Part shown: piece by piece, positions 3,977 to 38,704 of the stretch | How positions within the stretch are numbered: position 1 is the stretch's first letter | Layout: the number at the start of each line of letters is the position of its first letter | Assembly (NCBI GenBank): GCA_913776045.1 | Contig: CAJYOI010000002.1 | Span: 1 to 41,234 of the forward strand | DNA from: an uncultured Sphingomonas sp. | GTDB taxonomy: Bacteria > Pseudomonadota > Alphaproteobacteria > Sphingomonadales > Sphingomonadaceae | Direction of reading: 5' to 3' | DNA: 41,234 nucleotides | The notes under the pieces: generated by a model | Told to the model about the DNA's origin: nothing | Databases searched by the model: none | The model's input: only the letters and a program-made list of their open reading frames with translations | Made by a program: the position numbers and the translations under genes

Positions 3977-6900
3977 TCAATGAAAGTCGCGGGATCTGAT
4001 CGGGATGGCGTCTTCGGGATCGCAACCGGTACGGAACGCCTTGTGATAATCGGATCGGACGCGCGGTTGCCAGCCGGGATCACCGCGGTCGGGCGAGCCG
4101 CCATGCGTCGCGCCATCGCCGCGTGTCGTCAGGCGTGGCAGGTCAACGTCGCCGACCTCACGCAGCATCCAGCTGTAATCGACGATGCGATCGACGATGA
4201 CGTGGATGACCAGCCCCTCCTTCTGCACACGCCCCTGTACGCCGATCATCGTCGCCGACATGACCGTGCGGCGCTGCGCCTCGAACCGGTCGGGCCACAG
4301 GATCGCGTTGGCGACGCCGGTTTCGTCCTCGATGGTGATGAACAGCACGCCCTTGGCCGATCCCGGCTTCTGCCGGACCAGGATGACGCCGGCGACCTCA
4401 ACCTTGCGACCGTCCTTAACGCCGGCGAGCGCAGACGCCGGCACGATGCCGGCCCGCCCCAGCCGCGGGCGCAGGAACGACAGGGGATGCGCGCGCAGCG
4501 AAAGCTGGGTCGACCGATAATCCTCAACCACCTCGCGCCCCGCGGTCAGCGGCGTGAGCGCGACGGCGGGCTCGCGCACCTCCATCGCGTCGAGCAGCGG
4601 CAGCGATTTCTCGCCCAGCGCCTTTACCGCCCACAGCGCCTGGCGGCGGTCATGGCCGAAACAGCGAAACGCATCGGCCCGCGCCAGCCGTTCGAGCGCA
4701 GCGGGCTTGACCCGCGACCGACGAAAGACGTCCGGGATGGACGCGAAGGGACCGCCGGCGGCGCGCGCAGCGAGGATCGCGTCGGCATCGTTTTGCGCCA
4801 GCCCCGCGACCATGTTCATGCCCAAGCGGATCGGGCGCAGGTCCGCCCAGTCGGCGTCCGAACCGGCGAAGCGGATAAGTTTTCTCCCCACCGACGGGAG
4901 AGGGCATAACAGCCGCGTGTCCCAATCGCTGTCGTTGATGCACACCGGCTCGACCACCACGCCATGCTCGCGCGCGTCGCGTACGATCTGCGCGGGCGCA
5001 TAAAACCCCATCGGCTGCGCATTCAGCAACGCTGCGCAGAACACGTCCGGGTGATGGCATTTCATCCAGCAGGAGGCGTAGGCGATCTTGGCAAAGGACG
5101 CGGCGTGGCTTTCGGGGAAGCCGTAGCTGCCGAACCCCTCGATCTGCTTGACCAGGCGTTCGGCGAATTCGAGCGAAATGCCATTCTTGAGCATCCCGGC
5201 AATGAGTTCGTCATGGAAATGACCGACTCCGCCGGTGAACTTGAACGTTGCCATCGCCTTGCGCAGGCTATCGGCCTTGCTGGGCGAAAAGCCCGCGCCG
5301 ACGATCGCGACCTTCATCGCCTGTTCCTGGAACAGCGGCACGCCCATGGTCTTTTCCAGCACTTCACGCAGGGCATGGTTCGGATATTCGATCTTCTCCT
5401 TCCCCTCGCGCCGGCGCAGATAGGGGTGCACCATGTCGCCTTGGATCGGCCCGGGCCGAACGATCGCGACTTCGATCACCAGATCGTAGAATTCGCGTGG
5501 CTTCATCCGCGGCAGCATGGACATCTGCGCACGACTTTCGATCTGGAAGACGCCGAGCGTATCGGCCTTCTGGATCATGGCAAACGTCTCGGGGCAATCG
5601 ACCTGCATCTCGTCGGACGCCATCGTCAGGCGCAGCCCCTTGTGTTCAGCGAGCAATTCGAACGCACGGCGCATGCAGCCGAGCATGCCCAGGCCGAGGA
5701 TGTCGACCTTCATCAGCTTCAGTTCTTCGATGTCGGCCTTTTCCCATTCGACGACGTGACGATCCGCCATCGCGGCGGGCTCGATCGGCACCAGCGTATC
5801 GAGCCGGTCGCGGGTCAGCACGAAGCCGCCGGGATGCTGCGACAGATGCCGCGGCGTGCCGATCAATTCGCGGGCCAACTCCAGCGTCAGCGCGAGGTGC
5901 GGATCGGTCTTGTCCAGGTTGAGCTGGTCGACGTGGGTATCCTTCACGCCTTCCTCCGACCAGCCCCACACCTGTCCGGCGAGCGCCGCGGTCATATCTT
6001 CGGAAAGACCCATGACCTTGCCGACCTCACGCACGGCGCCACGCGCTCGAAAGCGGCTGACGACGGCGGTCAGGGCCGCGTGATCCCGCCCATAGGTGTC
6101 GTAGATCCACTGGATCACGTCCTCACGCCGTTCGTGCTCGAAATCGACGTCGATGTCGGGCGGTTCGTGCCGGTCCTCGGAAATGAAGCGTTCGAACAGC
6201 AGCTTGTGCTGAACCGGATCGATCGATGTGACGCCCAGCACGAAGCAGATCATCGAATTGGCGGCAGAGCCCCGCCCCTGGCACAAGATGTTCTGGCTGC
6301 GCGCGTAATCGACGATCGCGACAACAGTCAGGAAATAGGGCGCGTATCGCATCTTCGCGACAAGCGTGAGCTCATGACGGAGCAGCTTGCGATAGCGCTT
6401 GGTCGGTCGACCATCATATCGCTTGTTCAAGGCACGCCAGGCGAGCTTTTCCAATGCCTTCTGCGGACTGTGCGCCGTCATCACCCGTTCGTCGGGATAT
6501 TGATACTCCAGGCTACGCAGATCGAAGGTGCATCGCTCGACGATCCGCTCGACTGCGTGCAGCGCATCGGGATAATCGGCGAAGCGCCGTGCCATCTCCT
6601 CCGGCGGCTTCAGATGCCGGTCGATGCTGCGTTCGCGGGCAAAGCCCAGGTCGTCGATCGTACAGCCGTGGCGGATCGCGGTGACGACATCCTGCAGCAT
6701 CCGCCGGTCGGGATGATGATAGAGCGCGTCACCCGTGGCCAGCGGGGCCAGGCCATACGCCCACGCCGCCTCCGCCGTGGCGCGCAGGCGAAGCGCATCG
6801 CCCGGTCGGCGGTGATGGGTCAGGCAGACATGACCACGATCGCGACCGAACACATCGGCCATCCAGGCGAGAGCATGGCGGTGCGGCACGTCGTCGGCGA

Positions 6901-7300
6901 CCAGCGCACCGATCAATCCGGCGGTATGGTCGGCGACATCCTCCCAATGCAGGAAGCATTGCCCCTTCTCACCCTTCTCGGGCCGCGCGCGCAGCTTGCC
7001 GCGGGTGAGCAGCGTGGTCAGTCGGCTCCAGGCCGCCGTATCCTGCGGCCAGACGAGCAGAGACGTGCCGCAGACGAGGTCGAGCCGACAGCCGGGGATC
7101 GAGCGGACGACGAGGCCGCTGTCGGCCTTCACCTTCTCGCTGGAATAGAGCGCGCGCACCACGCCCGCGACCGAATTGCGGTCGACGATACCCAAGGCCG
7201 GCATGCCCATGACCGCGGCCTGCGCGAACAATTCCTCGCACGACGACGCGCCGCGCAGGAAGCTGAAATGGGTGGTGACCTGCAGTTCGCTGTAGGTCAT
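3977..7300 (-). CDS. dnaE2: Error-prone DNA polymerase III alpha subunit DnaE2
   Basis: Protein of 1107 residues, normal length for DnaE2/ImuC, the catalytic subunit of the SOS mutasome. The N-terminal PHP domain is visible (THFSFLRGASSCEELF, residues 10-25). The polymerase active-site motif PPDIDVDFEHERR lies near residue 380, followed by the fingers, a helix-hairpin-helix region and an OB fold near the C-terminus (VEVAGVILVRQKPGSAKG). It works with ImuB, the adaptor to the beta clamp, and ImuA. Usually dnaE2 follows imuB directly. Here about 700 bases with a toxin-antitoxin pair on the other strand intervene, and no LexA box is visible just before dnaE2. Its expression therefore depends on read-through antisense to the toxin-antitoxin genes or on an unrecognised promoter. 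Confidence 0.95.
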   Translation of the reverse strand: MTYSELQVTTHFSFLRGASSCEELFAQAAVMGMPALGIVDRNSVAGVVRALYSSEKVKADSGLVVRSIPGCRLDLVCGTSLLVWPQDTAAWSRLTTLLTRGKLRARPEKGEKGQCFLHWEDVADHTAGLIGALVADDVPHRHALAWMADVFGRDRGHVCLTHHRRPGDALRLRATAEAAWAYGLAPLATGDALYHHPDRRMLQDVVTAIRHGCTIDDLGFARERSIDRHLKPPEEMARRFADYPDALHAVERIVERCTFDLRSLEYQYPDERVMTAHSPQKALEKLAWRALNKRYDGRPTKRYRKLLRHELTLVAKMRYAPYFLTVVAIVDYARSQNILCQGRGSAANSMICFVLGVTSIDPVQHKLLFERFISEDRHEPPDIDVDFEHERREDVIQWIYDTYGRDHAALTAVVSRFRARGAVREVGKVMGLSEDMTAALAGQVWGWSEEGVKDTHVDQLNLDKTDPHLALTLELARELIGTPRHLSQHPGGFVLTRDRLDTLVPIEPAAMADRHVVEWEKADIEELKLMKVDILGLGMLGCMRRAFELLAEHKGLRLTMASDEMQVDCPETFAMIQKADTLGVFQIESRAQMSMLPRMKPREFYDLVIEVAIVRPGPIQGDMVHPYLRRREGKEKIEYPNHALREVLEKTMGVPLFQEQAMKVAIVGAGFSPSKADSLRKAMATFKFTGGVGHFHDELIAGMLKNGISLEFAERLVKQIEGFGSYGFPESHAASFAKIAYASCWMKCHHPDVFCAALLNAQPMGFYAPAQIVRDAREHGVVVEPVCINDSDWDTRLLCPLPSVGRKLIRFAGSDADWADLRPIRLGMNMVAGLAQNDADAILAARAAGGPFASIPDVFRRSRVKPAALERLARADAFRCFGHDRRQALWAVKALGEKSLPLLDAMEVREPAVALTPLTAGREVVEDYRSTQLSLRAHPLSFLRPRLGRAGIVPASALAGVKDGRKVEVAGVILVRQKPGSAKGVLFITIEDETGVANAILWPDRFEAQRRTVMSATMIGVQGRVQKEGLVIHVIVDRIVDYSWMLREVGDVDLPRLTTRGDGATHGGSPDRGDPGWQPRVRSDYHKAFRTGCDPEDAIPIRSRDFH

Positions 7301-8013: not shown

Positions 8014-10089
8014 TCACCCGAACCACCCGTGCAGGAACCAGCTGAGGTCGCCCGTCTCCGCGCGTTCGCCGTCGCCGCGGCGGTAGAGCCAGAAGCGGGT
8101 GCCCGCATCGTCCTCGACGCAGAAATAGTCGCGCACGGCAGTGCGTTCGGCCGCACGGCGCCACCATTCGCCGGCGATGCGTTCGGGGCCGTCGGATCGC
8201 GCGACCGTAACGGTGCGGCCGCGCCAGACGAAGCGCCGCGGCGCGCCGTCGGGCATCACCGACAGGACGTTGTCGATCCGCTCGGGCCGGGCAAGCAGGC
8301 GTACCGGACGCGGCCAACGGGGATGCCAGGGCGGGACGATAGCGCGGGTGTCGAGCGCGCGGACATCATCGGGTTGCAGCTTGGGTGCGGCGCGGGTCGG
8401 CGGGTCGAGCGGCGGCGCGGGCGCAGCGCTGCGTTCGGGCACATCGCTTTCGACTGGACGGACACGCCACAACTTGCGGCCGAGCGTCGCCAGCGTGTCG
8501 ACTAGCGGGGCGAGATCGGGTTCTGTCTCCCCTGCCAGTTCCGCGCCCAGCGCTTCCGGCCCCAGCCGGTCTGCGGCGCGCAGGTGGAGGGTCAGCGCGT
8601 CGATGCCATAGCCGGGCTCGACGTCGCCGATACGGCGGACGAGCAGGCGCAGGATGTGCACGCCGTCGCGGCTCGGGCGCGCGAGGCCGATACGGATACG
8701 CTGTTGCACCGCGTCGACGCGGTCGGCGATCACTTCGATCCGCCGCGCGCCCAGGCCTGCGGTCGCCAGTTCGGCGGTCAGGCGGGGGACGAGCGTGCCC
8801 AGCCAATGCTCGATCGCCTCGGCGGTCGCGATCGGTTCGGCGAAGCGCTGGGTGATGGCGATCCGCTCGGGCGGGACGACGGGCGTCAGCGGATCGGGCA
8901 GCCGGCCGAGCGCCTGGTCGAGCCGGGCGACGGTGCCGGGGCCGAAGCGGCGGGCAAGGGGACCGCGCGCAACGTCGGCCAACATGCCGATCGTGTCGAT
9001 GCCCAGGCGGCGGAGCAGCTCCACCTGCGTCTCGCTCAGCGCCAGCGCAGCCACGGGTAGCGGCGCAAGCGCGGCGGCATCATCGCGCGAATGGACGATC
9101 CGCGCCTGGCCATAGCGGGCGAGTGCGTGCGCAGCGGCGGGGGAATTTGCGACCGCAATGCGGGCGGTAAAACCACGGGCAGCGAGCTGACGGACGATTC
9201 GTCGCGCCATCGACGCCTCGCCGCCGTGGAGGTGTTCGGTCCCGGTGATGTCGATCAGCAGGCCCGCCGTGCCGTCGATCGCGACCGTCGGTGACACGCG
9301 GCGCGCGAGGACGGTCGCGAGCGCGGCGAGGTCGGCGGCGTCGCCGGCTGGGTCATGGTCGTGGACGACAAGGCCGGGCGTCTGAGCGCGCGCCTGAGTC
9401 AGCGCCATGCCGCGGGTGATGCCCAGCGCGCGAGCATGAGCGCAGGCGGCGGCGATTTCGACGCGCGGGCCGGTCTTGTGGACGAGGACCAGGGGCTGAT
9501 CCTCCCCGGCACGGGGAGGGGGACCGCCGCGTAGGGGTGGTGGAGGGGGAGTGCCGCGAGCGAAATCCTGGTGGAGCCCCCCCTCCACCAGCTTCGCTGG
9601 TCCCCCTCCCCGTGCCGGGGAGGATCCCCCCTCGTCAGGACGCATGGCCTTGAACGGATGCGGGGCGGCTTCGCTGCGGCGGCCGAGTTCGCGCATCGGG
9701 GGCTGCTGGTGTGTCGGGAGCGTGGCGATGGCCGCCTGCACCTCCGCCCGGGCCCAACGCGCGCCGGGACGCCAGCCGCCGCCGCGGGGGACCGAGCAGG
9801 CGTTGAGCTGTTCTGCGGCGGCCTGGGTGGCGAGAGCGTGCACTGTGCTGGTCAACCCGCCGTGCGCGGGAGTACGGAAAGGAGTCACATCGGTCCCGCC
9901 GTGAGCGAAGCCCACGGCGCCGGACGCACTGCGTGCGCCGGCCGTGCGGGGCGCTGCGGTGCCTTCGGCACGCACCGGTGCCGTCGCGCTTCGCGCCGAC
10001 GCACCTGCGCTATGCGGCGCGGCTTGTGCCGCTGCCCGCAACCGCTCGACGGACCACTCCGGCAGGTACAGCGCAGCGACCCGTTTCAT
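8014..10089 (-). CDS. imuB: Y-family polymerase-like mutasome subunit ImuB, enlarged
   Basis: A 691-residue ImuB. ImuB is a catalytically inactive Y-family protein that bridges ImuA, DnaE2 and the beta clamp. The start is set by the conserved MKRVAALYLPEW. The palm continues at PLVLVHKTGPRVEIAAA, and the active-site position reads AIDGTAGLLIDITG instead of SLDEAYLD, so the metal-binding Asp-Glu pair is lost, as usual for ImuB. The C-terminus carries the DUF6504-like segment ending WFLHGWFG. Family members are near 500 residues; here about 190 residues separate the first strand (to about residue 22) from PLVLVHK. Part of that (CSVPRGGGWRPGARW to PPMRELGRRSEAAPHPF) resembles sphingomonad ImuB as I remember it, but the rest is encoded by a palindromic element (9498-9626) and a hairpin cluster (9925-10000). 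imuA overlaps by 80 bases. Confidence 0.9.
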   Translation of the reverse strand: MKRVAALYLPEWSVERLRAAAQAAPHSAGASARSATAPVRAEGTAAPRTAGARSASGAVGFAHGGTDVTPFRTPAHGGLTSTVHALATQAAAEQLNACSVPRGGGWRPGARWARAEVQAAIATLPTHQQPPMRELGRRSEAAPHPFKAMRPDEGGSSPARGGGPAKLVEGGLHQDFARGTPPPPPLRGGPPPRAGEDQPLVLVHKTGPRVEIAAACAHARALGITRGMALTQARAQTPGLVVHDHDPAGDAADLAALATVLARRVSPTVAIDGTAGLLIDITGTEHLHGGEASMARRIVRQLAARGFTARIAVANSPAAAHALARYGQARIVHSRDDAAALAPLPVAALALSETQVELLRRLGIDTIGMLADVARGPLARRFGPGTVARLDQALGRLPDPLTPVVPPERIAITQRFAEPIATAEAIEHWLGTLVPRLTAELATAGLGARRIEVIADRVDAVQQRIRIGLARPSRDGVHILRLLVRRIGDVEPGYGIDALTLHLRAADRLGPEALGAELAGETEPDLAPLVDTLATLGRKLWRVRPVESDVPERSAAPAPPLDPPTRAAPKLQPDDVRALDTRAIVPPWHPRWPRPVRLLARPERIDNVLSVMPDGAPRRFVWRGRTVTVARSDGPERIAGEWWRRAAERTAVRDYFCVEDDAGTRFWLYRRGDGERAETGDLSWFLHGWFG
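9498..9626. repeat. 129-bp palindromic element in frame within imuB
   Basis: The outer 26 bases (9498-9523, starting GATCCTCCCC) are a perfect inverted repeat of 9601-9626. An inner pair (GGTGGAGGGGG-type and CCCCTCCACCA-type blocks) and a CCAGC-ttc-GCTGG hairpin complete the structure. The length is exactly 43 codons, so it adds about 43 residues (GSSPARGGG to GGPPPRAGED) without breaking imuB. The copy at 38577-38704 shares the arms and, in reverse orientation, the core TCGCTCGCG between C-rich and G-rich blocks. Confidence 0.85.
9925..10000. repeat. Cluster of three tight hairpins within imuB
   Basis: Three small stems with 3-base loops lie in a row: CGCAC-tgc-GTGCG (9925-9937), GTGCC-ttc-GGCAC (9959-9971) and GTCGCGC-ttc-GCGCCGAC (9983-10000, one bulge). 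They encode Ala/Arg/Ser/Gly-rich residues in the enlarged N-terminal region of ImuB. Similar clusters lie between genes at 13200 and 17105. Confidence 0.55.
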
Positions 10090-10831: not shown

Positions 10832-10982
10832 AATTCCTCCCCGAGCTTGTCTCGGGGAGGGGGGCCGCCGGCCGCAGGTCGGTGATGGAGGGGCTGGCGG
10901 CGTCCGGCGCTTGCCGCGCCGCCCTTCCACCACCCGGCTCCGCCGGGCGGTCCCCTACCCCAGCAAGCTGGGGGCGGAATTT
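10832..10982. repeat. Diverged 151-bp palindromic element between imuA and dcp
   Basis: The ends form an imperfect inverted repeat (AATTCCTCCCC at 10832 against the complement of the block ending 10982). The interior follows the same order as the elements at 9498 and 38577: G-rich block, GATGGAGGGG, GC-rich centre, CTTCCACCACC, then GTCCCCTACCCC. It lies in the 313-base gap between the divergent imuA and dcp genes. The rest of that gap holds the LexA box (10782) and the dcp promoter side, where I see no clear element. Confidence 0.6.
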
Positions 10983-38564: not shown

Positions 38565-38576
38565 TGTGATCCTTCG

Positions 38577-38704
38577 ATCCTCCCCGGTACGGGGAGGTGG
38601 CAGTGCGCAACACTGACGTAGGGGGGGCTCCGCGTAAGACATCGCTCGCGAATACCCCCCTCTACCATACTGCGCATGGTCCCCCTCCCCGTACCGGGGA
38701 GGAT
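38577..38704. repeat. 128-bp palindromic element between ferB and ferA
   Basis: The ends (38577-38597 and 38684-38704, ATCCTCCCCGGTACGGGGAG plus one base) are a perfect inverted repeat. Inside are CAGTG-cgcaa-CACTG, an ACCAT/ATGGT stem and facing GTAGGGGGGG and CCCCCCTCTAC blocks flanking TCGCTCGCG. It is the same family as 9498-9626 in the other orientation. It fills almost the whole 148-base gap between two co-directional genes. Confidence 0.85.

Follow-up and report, generated by a model that had tools for sequence, protein, structure and literature searches.

Short palindromic elements are inserted in frame in several conserved genes of an uncultured Sphingomonas sp., and we consider it probable (roughly 0.7) that the 129-bp copies are miniature forms of palindromic mobile elements encoding a DUF559 nuclease. 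The in-frame insertion was confirmed and belongs to a type already known. In the scheme that we propose, a long form of about 450 bp would consist of a DUF559 nuclease gene between two palindromic arms, and the 129-bp copy, two arms around some 30 bp without the gene, would be its nonautonomous derivative. Copies would insert at many places, and those that survive in coding DNA would have a length divisible by three, lack a stop codon, and sit in a flexible linker or loop, with stop-poor frames raising the chance of survival in genes. Later loss would occur by deletion between the two similar end hairpins, leaving one hairpin behind. The elements would be moved by the DUF559 nuclease, which perhaps nicks the hairpin or the target so that repair or ligation then places the palindrome, and the small forms would have arisen from the long ones, not the reverse.

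The copy in imuB occupies positions 9498 to 9626 (minus strand) of the window, the 41,234-nucleotide stretch of contig that was analyzed, and contributes residues of about 155 to 197 (GSSPARGGGPAKLVEGG...PPPRAGEDQ) to the 691-aa product of the host gene (8014 to 10089, minus strand; Pfam IMS, IMS_C, and DUF6504). The name imuB comes from an earlier sequence-only reading and is supported by dnaE2, an error-prone polymerase gene, at 3977 to 7300. The window sequence and the reading frame bore out that reading as to the position, the 129-bp length, and the frame, which has no stop codon when read on the minus strand within imuB. The inverted arms are perfect, as it had held, over 28 bp rather than the 26 bp that it gave (9498 to 9525 and 9599 to 9626), and they extend to 33 bp at 94%. 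Each arm contains an end hairpin (9501 to 9519, CCTCCCCGGCACGGGGAGG, and 9605 to 9623, CCTCCCCGTGCCGGGGAGG), and the 129 nt fold into a single hairpin of -110.4 kcal/mol (z of -11 against 200 shuffles). End hairpins of the form CCTCCCCG-N-CGGGGAGG occur four times in the window, all within two full copies, and not once in 100 shuffles. The insert had been placed in a linker between the first strand and the palm. The AlphaFold model of ImuB, a weak one (mean pLDDT of 67.6; pTM of 0.45), agrees, with the insert in a stretch of pLDDT below 50 (residues 132 to 195) between the first strand (residues 4 to 8) and the strands from residue 200.

A related copy had also been reported between ferB and ferA. 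It is an intergenic family member at 38576 to 38704 (plus strand), and its neighbors fit those assignments: a p-hydroxycinnamoyl-CoA hydratase/lyase gene scoring above the NCBIfam cutoff and a CoA-ligase-type gene with Pfam domains and scores below the NCBIfam cutoffs. A variant member with a CCTCCCCGAGCTTGTCTCGGGGAGG end hairpin lies at 10832 to 10982 (boundaries set by eye; partial match at 10853 to 10893), upstream of the unnamed gene before imuB. The variant is also found in the relative Leaf33, and its arm is of the same kind as that of a DUF559 element on a Sphingobium plasmid.

A DNA search of the whole 3.15-Mb genome (99.86% complete) gave 79 matches, both strands counted, at a minimum of 40 distinct places, a lower bound because 40 of 73 candidates were scored. 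Complete copies were mostly 126 to 138 bp long among the 39 copies read. Their inner hairpins vary in sequence while the pairing, judged by eye, is kept (AGCGAAGCT, ATGCGCAGCAT, and GGCGAAGCC). At an E value of 1e-8, at least 88 of 296 genomes of the order had a match (at most two candidates were scored per genome, making 88 a lower bound), and all matching genomes belonged to the same family. The window had no Rfam match at the gathering score. Repeats associated with CcrM in Caulobacter carry a GANTC site, which was present in 4 of the 39 copies; GTAG occurred in the end window of 2 copies and CGTC in that of 7, so neither a GTAG tag at the hairpin foot, nor a CGTC tag, nor GANTC characterizes this family. 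Among the 50 hairpins listed, of 57 in total, 7 lacked a partner in the family list. On reading, three of them were truly free (L250, L251, and L252, of which L250 is without ATCC ends), and the other four were parts of longer, shorter, or cut copies.

In-frame copies were called by a codon-score test on both flanks combined with open-frame reading. The flanks were coding in the same phase in 11 of the 39 copies, and 6 of these were open throughout, in the conserved genes imuB, ligD, murD, glyS, gluQRS, and that for methylmalonyl-CoA mutase. The remaining five (L005, L012, L078, L079, and L083) had stops between the flanks and represent either neighboring genes or broken ones. Three reading frames are in use: SSPARGGG in imuB and glyS; ILPGTGRG in murD, ligD, and gluQRS (varied in the last two); and NPPLQGEG in the mutase. 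Alignments to PDB chains are interrupted at the insert in GlyS (query 419/470 corresponding to chain 378/385) and the mutase (query 524/566, chain 533/536), and a solved structure aligns with GluQRS on both sides of the insert and not through it. In the MurD model (mean pLDDT of 84.7), the sole segment below 50, residues 53 to 87, is in the insert. Frames of the copies were open in 186 of 228 cases (157/192, or 82%, for nongenic copies and 29/36, or 81%, for genic ones), compared with 61% both in shuffles and in flanks. The family is thus stop-poor in most frames and, in that sense, preadapted to survival in genes. Two further copies, near the N terminus of a class-V aminotransferase (SufS-like) gene and of an N-formylglutamate amidohydrolase gene (L080 and L021), were left out of the in-frame count and could be either translated or leader sequence.

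We next compared three of these sites among orthologues from 26 relatives. The mutase gene was missing in G001, and its site was filled in 4 of the 26 genomes with the gene (this genome, Leaf33, G029, and G018) and empty in the remaining 22. G018 is filled and its close relatives G034 and G024 are empty at 97 to 98% protein identity; in place of the palindrome, the latter show some 13 bp, and between flanks that can be aligned the net gain in G018 is 132 bp. The site in glyS follows ..LVEEGI(V) and was occupied in 19 of 27 genomes; that in murD was occupied in 11 of 27. A short glyS segment in G030 (17 aa) and four longer nonpalindromic murD linkers (L102, L103, L105, and L106) were scored as empty. 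Both sites host several palindrome families, whose positions agree to within one or two residues. The presence of unrelated families at one place suggests that tolerance acts as the filter, not a target sequence common to them.

Fold z scores of the 32 measurable inserts ranged from -2.5 to -10.8, against a mean of -0.27 and a minimum of -3.1 for 64 control segments; the weakest score, within the control range, belongs to the murD insert of this genome. The filled glyS rows of G018 and Leaf33 were outside this measurement, the latter being interrupted by a string of N's. Blastn grouped the 32 inserts into clusters of 23, 5, and 4. With family labels assigned by hand (A, B, D, and F), the glyS site reads empty, A, and D in the sister species G013, G014, and G036 and F and D in G031 and G066. 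The number of label changes on the tree was 13 for glyS (shuffled mean, 16.0; lowest, 13), 9 for murD (mean, 10.2; lowest, 8), and 3 for the mutase (mean, 3.9; lowest, 3), counts that depend on how the families are split, as blastn places A and D in a single cluster. Slightly fewer changes than in the shuffled sets fit turnover, to the extent that the hand labels hold.

Gain and loss were apparent in the comparison with Leaf33, in which a profile search found 23 full-length copies within 800 kb. Thirteen of these could be compared with this genome: eight sites were filled, two held remnants, and three were empty, in a set biased toward filled sites by the large amount of sequence fetched around copies (murD was counted from the orthologue alignment). 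At murG-murC, the stop of one gene overlaps the start of the next in 19 of the 22 genomes, and a 45-bp spacer separates them in two more; the element occurs in Leaf33 alone, which identifies a gain. At murB-ddl, elements of two kinds, one of them a single hairpin, were present in 4 of 21 genomes, and 16 had none. In a propionyl-CoA-carboxylase-type gene, Leaf33 has 130 bp in frame and this genome a single 22-bp end hairpin, also in frame, a difference of 108 bp, or 36 codons. Each end hairpin is self-complementary, so that the two are also near direct repeats, and a deletion between them explains this loss. A second single hairpin, at C33:42399, corresponds to a full copy in Leaf33. In the reverse comparison, each of the 10 copies of this genome for which the Leaf33 stretch contained both flanks had a filled counterpart there, implying that movement is slow in this pair. 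Neither three junctions nor the mutase site showed a clean target-site duplication; the junctions had on both sides only the start/stop overlap, TGA or GTGA. An earlier scan of the Leaf33 stretch for perfect arms missed the in-frame mutase and murD copies, and the later profile search upheld as a family member just one of the five copies that it had called in frame, that in the carboxylase gene. In the mur/ddl cell wall cluster (contig C36, L226 to L228, and L217), several family copies lie in murD and at gene junctions, at partly different places in this genome and Leaf33.

Larger forms with a central DUF559 gene lay outside the window covered by the sequence-only reading. Three DUF559 genes were found in this genome. 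Two of them, at C19:45370-45816 and at C41 about 209648-210107, have family arms on both sides, so that the gene is enclosed by a pair of inverted arms from one repeat family; the third is flanked by weak arms (score of 29, under the threshold). The imuB element is 91% (positions 1 to 54) and 86% (positions 64 to 129) identical to the arms of the C19 element, and the glyS insert of this genome is 100% identical along 49 bp to one arm of the C41 element. Pooling the genus and the class, inverted arms surrounded DUF559 in 44 of 60 loci and in none of 240 shifted windows; the loci were best-scoring matches rather than a random draw. In the genus (the three own loci plus 30 from a sample search), 28 of 33 reached an arm score of 40, compared with 0 of 132 shifted windows (maximum, 33). 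In the class (29 new loci, two of them cut by contig ends), 16 of 27 did so, compared with 0 of 108 (maximum, 27). The 16 of 60 loci below the threshold include one of the three in this genome. Random pairs of flanks from different loci reached 40 in 24% of cases because arm families are shared between loci. Arm similarity correlated with nuclease identity (rho of 0.37 for 42 loci and 0.535 for 27 genus loci), a value matched in 0 of 2,000 permutations in each case. DUF559 was present in 57 of 61 genomes of the genus sample and in 51 of 142 of the class.

Of the 32 inserts in glyS, murD, and the mutase gene, 25 matched genus DUF559 arms (E of 1e-4). The seven without a match include all five of a CGTC-like cluster, so DUF559 does not explain every family. 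The motif D..ExDG..H, which we take to be the PD-(D/E)XK active-site pattern, was found in 57 of 60 DUF559 proteins, and PDB entry 3hrl matched DUF559 at an E value of 1.7e-14. The arrangement also occurs on plasmids: DUF559 lies between two transhydrogenase genes on NZ_CP155755.1 of S. parapaucimobilis (arm score of 49), between sufB and sufC at the plasmid locus NZ_CP155753.1 (52), and at a locus on NZ_CP016453.1 of Sphingobium sp. RAC03 (64). The last of the four plasmid loci read, the cyanobacterial NC_010480.1, scored 25 versus 16 to 24 in shifted windows. On NZ_CP155755.1 (L326, 1501 to 1896) and NZ_CP016453.1 (L328, 1462 to 1896), the annotated DUF559 frame enters the right palindromic arm, which would thus code for the C-terminal tail of the nuclease.

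The simplest alternative, that the imuB segment is not a mobile repeat but a linker, whether ordinary or functional, or an artifact of assembly, draws on the variability of the ImuB linker among many orthologues, and we give it almost no weight. Seventeen of 28 orthologues could be anchored (11 in which the anchors did not fit were dropped), and their linkers were palindromic in 8 and nonpalindromic in 9. Moreover, Leaf33 has a related palindrome at the same site, and the family occupies at least 40 genomic places. Orthologues that all carried these residues as a conserved domain, or a genome without further copies, had been named beforehand as outcomes that would speak against such an inserted element, and neither appeared: some orthologues lack the residues, and further copies are numerous. 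A classical miniature inverted-repeat element of a DDE insertion sequence would share the size, the inverted ends, and the small gene-free forms. The lack of a clean target duplication at the three junctions and the mutase site, and the DUF559 gene in both longer forms seen, speak against this origin, which we rate as very improbable.

We hold it to be equally remote that the palindromes are REP doublets mobilized in trans by a Y1 (HUH) REP-associated transposase, as in REPINs, which have the same architecture of two inverted end hairpins with single-hairpin remnants (Bertels and Rainey 2011, PMC3116915, in the part of the text available). A search for a Y1 transposase as the driver found no Y1_Tnp in this genome; it was present in 4 of the 61 genomes of the genus sample and missing in the other 57, among which this genome is counted. 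GTAG stood near an end in only 2 of 39 copies, and Y1 loci were without arms (scores of 15 to 27 in the seven scorable of eight). A more serious, if still unlikely, alternative is that DUF559 is a passenger that homes into, or is caught by, palindromes spreading otherwise, e.g., by replication slippage or template switching. The single-hairpin remnants and the missing target duplications fit replication-based events, the CGTC-like families, which matched no DUF559 arm, have spread into the same glyS site, and a Vsr-like repair role has been reported in Caulobacter (available part of PMC12907096). Against it, DUF559 is central between arms in 44 of 60 loci, and the arm type tracks the nuclease sequence, which we regard as favoring DUF559-encoding elements with miniature derivatives.

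The sequence-only reading had likened the imuB insert to Rickettsia palindromic elements and supposed such a family to be new in sphingomonads. The likeness is right in kind. Rickettsia elements, as far as the available parts of PMC10969869 and PMC3733652 describe them, are palindromes of about 150 bp, of several families, in frame in unrelated protein genes; six such genes are involved here, and the likeness is one of description. Unlike Rickettsia, the present host is free-living, and the long forms carry DUF559. The supposed novelty did not hold, as CGTC-tagged REPs within genes of S. alaskensis and E. litoralis are in print (Di Nocera et al. 2013, PMC3733652, available in part). According to the same portions of that paper, intragenic GTAG/CGTC REPs occur in tRNA synthetase and repair genes, including about the same recB site in two Xanthomonas, and CGTC REPs are not associated with transposase genes (Table 1). 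These REPs resemble our family as palindromic repeats inside genes, sphingomonads included, but they are tagged units of 20 to 40 bp, whereas the present copies are mostly 126 to 138 bp and mostly untagged. The CGTC-like glyS inserts of five relatives may belong to the CGTC REPs.

REPINs are similar in that an inverted hairpin pair forms the miniature mobile unit and singles are its remnants; they differ in their partner, a Y1 transposase, which is missing here, where a DUF559 gene lies inside the palindrome (PMC3116915, available part). The Caulobacter protein VsrA belongs to the same family (PF04480) and is interpreted as a Vsr-like mismatch repair nuclease (PMC12907096); the text of that paper does not mention palindromes or inverted repeats. 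In the open-access literature searched, we found no description of DUF559 inside palindromic repeats, nothing linking Vsr with REPs and transposition, and nothing relevant by title on sphingomonad palindromic or miniature repeats. As far as that search extends, the DUF559-carrying form and the frequent reoccupation of the same protein sites are new.

The chances seem about even for a broader proposal, that DUF559 (Vsr-like, PD-(D/E)XK type) across Alphaproteobacteria is the enzyme of a new class of mobile elements with nested-palindrome ends, whose miniatures insert again and again at the same flexible positions in essential proteins and at operon start/stop overlaps and exit via a one-hairpin remnant, rewriting protein linkers. 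If true, alphaproteobacterial palindromic repeats without a Y1 transposase would have a partner enzyme, and many orphan DUF559 genes would be explained. Sphingomonas would offer a natural experiment in insertion tolerance, with different palindromes at one glyS or murD position in sister species, and the old claim that protein segments are born from selfish palindromes would become testable in free-living, culturable bacteria.

Other irregular stretches were seen in the same proteins. For many of the GlyS sequences of relatives (L123 to L148), the alignment is interrupted again around query residues 590 and 670, and frames reach 1,004 aa; further in-frame inserts may lie at these breaks. A second in-frame stretch, of another type (HPGESRGP..GPGFRRDD and HPRERGGP..RDPRVRGDDG), is present in ImuB of Sphingomonas MAG-45 and S. 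glacialis E6.1 (L055 and L065) inside the polymerase domain, before ..CPPG. In the window, positions 9850 to 10030 (ImuB residues of about 20 to 80) are of low complexity with many short palindromes, are different or absent in most orthologues read, and might be a further old insert. Several other ImuB proteins (L060, L062, L035 to L037, and L030) have linkers of about 300 to 500 residues before the palm, with repeated motifs such as MPSVQFPGEG.
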